Positions 10,419 through 11,634 of a stretch of 64,000 nt of DNA are shown here, piece after piece; position 1 is the first letter of the stretch, and each line of letters starts with the position of its first letter. The translations under genes and the position numbers were made by a program. Source of the stretch: Acidobacteriota bacterium (GTDB taxonomy: Bacteria > Acidobacteriota > Terriglobia > Terriglobales > Acidobacteriaceae); NCBI GenBank assembly GCA_013289875.1, contig JABCZC010000018.1, positions 1 through 64,000 of the forward strand, read 5' to 3'. Below the pieces are notes generated by a model that saw only the letters and a program-made list of their open reading frames with translations, ran no database searches and was not told the DNA's origin.

Positions 10419-10537
10419 CGCACTTTATCTCGTCGCGCGAGTGCGTCTTTTTCCACCCATTATTCCGTCTCTTGTTTGAGAGGTTCGCGCGGGCACTCTT
10501 CCAGAGTTTCTCCCCGGTTGATCCTCCAACATGGAAA

Positions 10538-10568
10538 AGCCCCGGTGGTTCGTGGGTCCACCGGGGCT
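10538..10568 (-). terminator. Rho-independent terminator of the GvpL/F-like gene
   Basis: A perfect 11-bp stem (AGCCCCGGTGG / CCACCGGGGCT) with a 9-base loop. Read on the minus strand it is followed by TTTT, and it lies just downstream of the minus-strand gene ending at 10594. Confidence 0.8.
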
Positions 10569-10593: not shown

Positions 10594-11355
10594 TTATGCC
10601 GACGCCGCATGTGCATGCGGATGGGCTGCGCGCGTCAATTGGTGTACGAAGTGGTAAGGCGGCCAGGGTCCGGAGAGCTGCATCTGGCAGTCCTTCATCA
10701 CTTGGCTCGCGCTCGAGTACTTGTTCTGATAGCGCTCCACGCCCTTGTGATCGATCAGGTGAGCGATATCGAGGAGCATTTTCCCGGCATCCGTGCGCTT
10801 GCAGGAAATCTCCTCGGCCAGGGGCGAGAACATCCGGTGCATCTGCACGGATACCGCTCGCGCCTTGGTCTGGCGCTCGCGCTGCAGTGTGGCACTCTCG
10901 CGGAGGTTGGTTAAATATTCCCGGCCAACCCTGCTGATTTCGGCCGGAATTACGCGCCGTATCTGGTCACGGCAGCAATCGTCGAGCGTCACCTTCAGGT
11001 GCATCTCGGCCTTGCCGCGCAACCGTTCGATATTGGTAATAAACTGCCGCTGATTGGACCGAATCGAGCGACGAAGGGCGTCGTCATCGGCAAACACAGT
11101 GCCAAAGCGGAAGGGAAGCACTGTCGAAGTCTTGAAGCAGTCCGCGATCACGCGCGCGTGATCCATGGCTGCCTTCTGAGTGAAATTGTCTACTGGGGAA
11201 TGTTCGCTGACGATGACGGCTAAATCACTGGCTGGGTAGAGGAAGACCTGGTTGCCCTGAATGCCCGAAACCGCTTCCATTGGAATTGGTTTACGGTGAC
11301 GAATTAGCTCAGGGAAGGCTTGTTTTTCTGTAATGCAGTAGGCATACCATGCCAT
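10594..11355 (-). CDS. GvpL/GvpF-family gas vesicle-like protein (orphan)
   Basis: A 253-residue protein that matches the GvpL/GvpF family across its length. It begins MAWYAYCITEK, has a GIQGNQVFLYPASDLAVIVSE-type N-terminal half (shown in part), then TVLPFRFGTVF, GKAEMHLKVTLDD, a GREYLTNLRES helix, and the diagnostic C-terminus SGPWPPYHFV. In gas-vesicle producers GvpF/L is an accessory factor thought to bind GvpA during nucleation. No gvpA, gvpN, gvpJ or other gvp gene is nearby, so the role here is unlikely to be buoyancy. The start is the ATG at 11355 with GGAGCG upstream; a longer frame to 11475 adds an unrelated Arg-rich stretch. The C-terminus ends in a His/Ala-rich tail that could bind metal. 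Confidence 0.85.
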   Translation of the reverse strand: MAWYAYCITEKQAFPELIRHRKPIPMEAVSGIQGNQVFLYPASDLAVIVSEHSPVDNFTQKAAMDHARVIADCFKTSTVLPFRFGTVFADDDALRRSIRSNQRQFITNIERLRGKAEMHLKVTLDDCCRDQIRRVIPAEISRVGREYLTNLRESATLQRERQTKARAVSVQMHRMFSPLAEEISCKRTDAGKMLLDIAHLIDHKGVERYQNKYSSASQVMKDCQMQLSGPWPPYHFVHQLTRAAHPHAHAASA

Positions 11356-11634
11356 AGAGAATCGCTCCACGCTTGCTTTACGAAGGATTGGGACATCTGC
11401 AATTTCGAGGATTGACTGCGTGTATTTTGATCTCCGCCGCGTTCGCTCACACAGCGAACTGCAACGATCCTGCAACGAACTGGAACGTATGCTATCCCCG
11501 TGAATTAAGAACTGGCAATACGCGCCGCCTTTTCCACAGTAAAGTTAGCAAGAGAATCGCAATTGGATTTGGTATTACTGCAATTTATATTCGTCAAGTC
11601 AACGAATCACGACATCATTGAAAATCAAGGCTGA
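11356..11634. other. Divergent intergenic region
   Basis: About 280 bases between the GvpL/F-like gene (minus) and the methyltransferase reading frame (plus), AT-richer than the flanks. It must carry two divergent promoters. I see no convincing gene, RNA or repeat. Confidence 0.4.

Follow-up and report, generated by a model that had tools for sequence, protein, structure and literature searches.

A GvpL/GvpF paralogue kept without gas vesicle genes is a core gene of the Acidobacteriaceae

As far as the literature that we searched shows, GvpF and GvpL are known solely as gas vesicle assembly factors. GvpF has been proposed to be a transient chaperone of GvpA, and the molecular action of GvpF and GvpL is unsettled (PMC11445434). 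In haloarchaea, GvpF binds residues 1 to 22 of GvpA, and GvpL offers other Gvp proteins a platform (PMC9372576). In the GvpF of Anabaena, the C-terminal tail is tucked between the two domains (PMC7204071). Gas vesicle genes have also been noted in an acidobacterium, Ellin345, which carries an arsA homologue with gvp genes (PMC2963123). Among the open-licence papers listed by our search, judged largely by title and abstract, none describes an orphan GvpL/F; this is not proof that no description has been published. By the literature searched, the GvpL/F family itself is known, whereas a gas-vesicle-free form carried throughout a bacterial family is apparently undescribed.

We analyzed one stretch of 64,000 nucleotides, here called the window, that probably belongs to the genus Silvibacterium, judging by sequence similarity: the closest named records are Silvibacterium metagenome assemblies with 91% identity, and the best 80 of 545 relatives all bear acidobacterial names. 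The window contains an orphan GvpL/GvpF-family gene, and the features of its locus are collected in Table 1. The reading frame begins with ATG, and most of the orphan upstream regions that we inspected have a comparable GGAG or GGAA 5' of the start codon.

Table 1. Features of the orphan GvpL/F locus, with positions in the window
Feature	Position	Strand	Basis
Orphan GvpL/GvpF-family gene, 253 aa	10594..11355	(-)	PF06386 match, predicted fold, dN/dS
Candidate Shine-Dalgarno GGAG, 9 nt 5' of ATG	11365..11368	(-)	sequence reading
Putative long 5' leader, ~127 nt	11356..11482	(-)	start near 11482 inferred from -10 box
Promoter-like TTGCCA-18-TAGCAT	11489..11518	(-)	scan; conserved in relatives; specific to orphan
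Predicted terminator hairpin GCCCCGGTGG-ACCCACGAA-CCACCGGGGC then TTTT	10535..10567	(-)	fold z -3.1

The original prediction, that the protein has the whole GvpL/F pattern including a GPWPPYHFV end, was borne out by an end-to-end Pfam match and by the predicted fold. The PF06386 profile matches residues 2 to 238 (E 1.6e-55) and scores 189 bits where the cut-off is 23.6, and profile positions 1 to 245 of 245 are covered, so the protein is full length. With 48 orphan sequences as input, AlphaFold2 gave a model (mean pLDDT 89, pTM 0.79) that has the two-domain GvpF fold with a C-terminal tail. Its best match among solved structures is GvpF 6L5D (Z 19.0, 219 residues, rmsd 3.4), followed by GvpF 4QSG (Z 17.9, 221 residues, rmsd 3.6), at about 15% sequence identity. 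A sequence profile search also retrieves the 6L5D and 4QSG chains, and in the structure comparison of the model we saw no whole-protein fold match besides GvpF chains. The GPWPPxxF motif lies at residues 229 to 236 and the GPWPPYHFV end is followed by a short tail; GPW is present in 128 of 128 orphans, with W231 and F236 invariant. Given that this end is the counterpart of the Anabaena GvpF tail, its role is probably structural in the first place. We also tried the NCBIfam equivalog models as a means of separating orphans from cluster-encoded copies and dropped them, because both kinds score below cut-off: the orphan reaches 46.6 of 200 bits for GvpL (NF045778) and 25.1 of 350 bits for GvpF (NF052351), and six cluster-encoded copies also fall short.

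No gas vesicle genes accompany this gene, as had been claimed from its surroundings in the window. The assembly to which it belongs is a draft of 5.05 Mb in 184 contigs, estimated at 90% complete, in which the orphan is the sole PF06386 match. In profile searches of this draft, the gvpA family (PF00741) gave nothing over the cut-off (best E 0.87), gvpK was not found, and the search for a true gvpN returned generic AAA matches alone, far under the gvpN cut-off. We looked for the finding that would have overturned the prediction, a full gvp cluster at another place in the genome, and did not find it. Because the assembly is 90% complete, the absence of gvp genes rests also on complete relatives: in all 11 single-contig family members tested, the orphan is present and gvpA, gvpK and a true gvpN are all missing. 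These 11 are among 17 genomes of the same family used for the gvpK test, comprising 4 gvp-positive and 13 orphan-only genomes; gvpK was detected in 4 of 4 gvp-positive controls and in none of the 13 orphan-only genomes. Across the same 17 genomes, gvpN scored over its cut-off in two of the four gvp-positive genomes and in no orphan-only one. The genome context of a gas vesicle GvpF or GvpL, with gvpA, gvpN and gvpK, is therefore lacking in the genome of the window and in the 11 single-contig relatives.

The orphan is a near-universal core gene of the Acidobacteriaceae. Sampling the class (299 genomes), we detected GvpL/F in 99 and gvpA in 22; among the matches listed, 74 genomes with GvpL/F were from the family of the window, 4 of them with gvpA, and among the genomes listed as having no match, in an order apparently set by kinship, none came from this family. 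We then surveyed 250 Acidobacteriaceae genomes with an orphan-specific profile (threshold E <= 1e-60). The orphan was detected in 237 of the 250, in 173 of 177 good-quality genomes, and in 77 of 79 genera. The 13 negative genomes are mostly incomplete assemblies, but one of them, G567, is 98% complete. Among 250 genomes of the family drawn likewise, 52 have gvpA and 198 have no PF00741 match at E <= 0.001. About one-fifth of Acidobacteriaceae genomes thus carry gvpA-family genes, meaning that gas vesicle genes are patchy but not rare in the family. When the two tables were joined by genome, 190 genomes had the orphan only, 47 had both, 5 had gvpA only and 8 had neither. Outside the family, the orphan is present in 6 of 7 genomes of a second family of the class (f8). 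In a sample of the phylum (n = 297), the matches of orphan strength among those listed came from the Acidobacteriaceae only, and the remaining listed matches were weaker (E 3e-23 or worse).

We inferred a maximum-likelihood tree from 92 proteins, the original 94 rows having been reduced by omission of a duplicate locus (L004 = L097) and a 97-aa fragment of L024. The orphans form a single clade (support 100/99) made up of 42 proteins from the Acidobacteriaceae, 6 from f8 and 1 from f3. None of the 40 gvp-cluster copies in the tree, all of them from genomes of the same class, falls within this clade, and the orphan does not branch with cluster-encoded GvpF or GvpL. The sister group of the clade is weakly supported (82/45), and several cluster copies are long-branched. 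In five genomes (G047, G078, G227, G278 and G001), the orphan is encoded apart from a gvp cluster that has GvpL/F copies of its own. Comparison of the window gene with nine near relatives gave dN/dS values of 0.03 to 0.08 (Nei-Gojobori), which are rough in that synonymous sites are partly saturated and which indicate, at the sequence level, that the orphan is under strong purifying selection.

The orphan also looks like its own single-gene transcription unit, a reading that is well supported by elements on both sides of the gene. The promoter-like element came from a scan in which one such site would also be expected by chance; it aligns in relatives, where the conserved bases extend past both hexamers. 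In the 3.53 Mb of compared loci (both strands), the strict form of the element has 64 occurrences, equal to its count in orphan upstream regions, and looser forms are found in 84 and 102 of 128 such regions (a set that includes the same genomes from two collections and represents 121 distinct proteins). The element is missing from several early branches of the family and from f8. Across 20 genomes, a 30-base pattern of the promoter gave 22 matches, 17 of which lie at the orphan of as many different genomes; a control with a spacer one base shorter gave 3 unrelated matches. The 5 matches away from the orphan are about as many as the 4 obtained with a reversed control pattern; we therefore found no regulon sharing the orphan promoter in these 20 genomes.

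On the 3' side, the hairpin itself follows the stop codon at 10567 to 10539, and the terminator was not listed by a generic scan because its T run is short. A terminator-like hairpin occurs within 120 nt downstream of 98 of 127 orphans, compared to 1 of 127 shuffled sequences. The strict form of the window's hairpin has 12 occurrences in the searched loci, one per locus. Unusually for a terminator, the loop ACCCACGAA is conserved in sequence near the genus of the window; it recurs downstream of 26 of 127 orphans. Taken with the promoter, the recurrence of these elements in relatives gives good support to the expectation that the orphan has its own promoter and terminator and is maintained as a single gene.

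Between the -10 box and the ATG there is a putative long leader, with a median length of 127 nt in 112 of 128 upstream regions. In the window itself, the predicted folding of the leader is no better than that of its shuffles, and an Rfam search up to E 1 gave no match within the leader; two weak matches in the region correspond to the terminator and to the gene interior. In 34 leaders of one subclade (loci L139 to L189, e.g., L180:4874-5006), a hairpin precedes the Shine-Dalgarno sequence, with pairing over it. The alignment of these 34 leaders has double changes in 2 of 15 pairs, a number that 58 of 500 shuffles equaled or exceeded, and it suggests, with modest support, that the leader may exert translational control in this subclade.

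We compared gene neighborhoods at 41 loci, in one of which the orphan was absent from the ORF calls and was recovered by tblastn. The neighbors that recur are a gene of the pgsA family (at 18 loci), one of the glutamate dehydrogenase family (at 15) and an aroDE-like gene identified by eye (at 13). We considered these genes as operon partners and rejected them, since their order and distance vary, which points to an old chromosomal place rather than an operon. No neighbor is constant across the 41 loci, and thus genomic context offers no clue to a partner.

The protein combines features shared with the whole family and features of its own. Canonical GvpL/F positions are kept (P81, G114, E117, L200 and the GPWPP tail), which argues for a retained fold and a retained general binding mode. 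Four residues, F74, H199, Y209 and H235, are invariant in 128 orphans and mostly different in the 40 cluster copies, and A165, F176, C185 and D196 are nearly invariant in orphans and likewise mostly different in cluster copies. A5 and C7 are similarly typical of orphans (C7 nearly invariant), with 24 of 40 cluster copies gapped at positions 5 and 7. The median pI is 9.06 in the 128 orphans versus 6.53 in the 40 cluster copies.

Given its own clade, the selection on it, its single-gene unit and its family-wide presence without gvpA, the orphan is not a relic and does not belong to a hidden cluster; it is an old GvpL/F paralogue serving something else. We are highly confident in the components of this statement, namely family membership, predicted fold, the signs of a single-gene unit, a separate clade, purifying selection, near-universality and independence from gvpA. 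Because the gene is near-universal even where gas vesicle genes are lacking, it probably has some job outside gas vesicles. The original prediction had proposed a non-buoyancy role, for example as a protein chaperone or scaffold; upkeep for a reason other than buoyancy is well supported by the 190 orphan-only genomes, the separate clade, the dedicated promoter and terminator, and the dN/dS values. A chaperone or scaffold role is plausible by analogy with GvpF and GvpL in gas vesicles, although the chaperone role of GvpF is itself a proposal in the literature and not a settled fact. On this view, the protein would be soluble, with two domains, and would act as an adaptor or chaperone by binding to a short amphipathic helix in its client, as proposed for GvpF and helix 1 of GvpA; the putative client would be a non-Gvp cellular protein, and the orphan-specific invariant residues and basic charge would reflect a changed client surface. 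We attempted to map GvpA-contact residues onto the orphan and dropped this, as the mutants described in PMC9372576 point to no clear contact residue. For the statement as a whole, that the orphan is an old GvpL/F paralogue, core in the Acidobacteriaceae, working outside gas vesicles as a helix-binding chaperone or adaptor, we estimate a probability of about 0.5. At even odds, we would also propose a history in which the paralogue parted from the gas vesicle system no later than the early radiation of the Acidobacteriaceae, turned into a core assembly factor or chaperone of this soil lineage that is independent of gas vesicles, and later acquired its dedicated promoter, with gvp genes coming and going around it.

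The invariant His, Tyr and Cys residues could equally reflect ligand, metal or redox chemistry. On that basis, the orphan might be a sensor or a small-molecule- or metal-binding protein that regulates by binding, with a ferredoxin-like C-domain and a site formed by H199, Y209, H235, C7 and C185; these residues show little or no variation across 128 orphans, the 40 cluster copies mostly differ at these positions, and the C-domain (residues 113 to 241) resembles ACT, PII and CutA domains at Z of about 8 to 9. We consider this unlikely. Ferredoxin-like matches at Z 8 to 9 are common and no proof of function, and we rejected these partial matches as an indication of function for that reason. Moreover, G023 changes C7 and C185 together, whereas G001 changes C185 and H199 and keeps C7; because the two differ, the residues are not a strict metal set.

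The high median pI of the orphans relative to cluster copies would also fit a basic adaptor whose target is not a protein helix but RNA, DNA or a membrane, for instance one that takes part in the response to stress or acid. The Acidobacteriaceae are rich in acidophiles, which accords with such a role. In Streptomyces, gvp genes rise under acid stress (PMC7317143, PMC2631018); however, the response there is one of whole gvp clusters rather than of orphans, and in one cluster gvpA and gvpF fell. The orphan model, for its part, has no nucleic-acid-binding fold as a whole-protein match, and overall this role seems rather improbable.

Retention of every canonical GvpL/F motif is what would be expected if the orphan were an assembly factor for a protein shell, gas-vesicle-like or of another kind, with an unrecognized GvpA analogue. 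We regard this as very unlikely, given the lack of any PF00741 match over the cut-off in the genome of the window and of any at the survey threshold in 198 of 250 family genomes, and the lack of gvpK and a true gvpN in the 13 orphan-only genomes. That the gene is the leftover of a lost gvp cluster, drifting or not yet removed, is hardly credible and largely refuted by selection and the tree: the patchiness of gvpA (52 of 250 genomes) means that losses or gains did happen, but dN/dS is low, the gene is present in 237 of 250 genomes with its own conserved promoter, and its clade stands apart from the cluster copies and coexists with gvp clusters.

A core version found family-wide without GvpA means that the fold can be useful without a gas vesicle, and the orphan offers a one-gene system for studying the basic action of GvpL/F. 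It also calls for caution in annotation, as a GvpL/F label in soil genomes is not evidence of gas vesicles.

Three kinds of GvpL/F protein can be set beside the orphan. In G143 (L101:7497-11351) and G147 (L091:6549-8612), which have no gvpA, a second, distinct GvpL/F copy adjoins a HisKA histidine kinase. The G143 kinase has PAS domains and is followed by a response regulator, and the same kind of kinase and regulator is found in the gvp cluster of G227 (L092). These copies resemble the orphan in having a GvpL/F domain outside a gvpA-bearing cluster; unlike the orphan, they group with the cluster copies and are linked to signaling genes, and they may be cluster remnants or signaling modules. 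The GvpF and GvpL proteins encoded in acidobacterial gvp clusters (e.g., in G227, G278, G078 and G047) share the Pfam family with the orphan and, in most cases, the GPWPP tail, but they lie near gvpA and gvpK, whereas the orphan is located elsewhere in the same genomes, belongs to a separate clade and has a basic pI. Cyanobacterial GvpF (4QSG, 6L5D) has the same two-domain fold with a C-terminal tail that is predicted for the orphan, together with the conserved GvpL/F motifs; the orphan differs from it in its low identity (about 15%), in a genome free of gvpA, gvpN and gvpK, in its own putative promoter and in its orphan-specific invariant residues.
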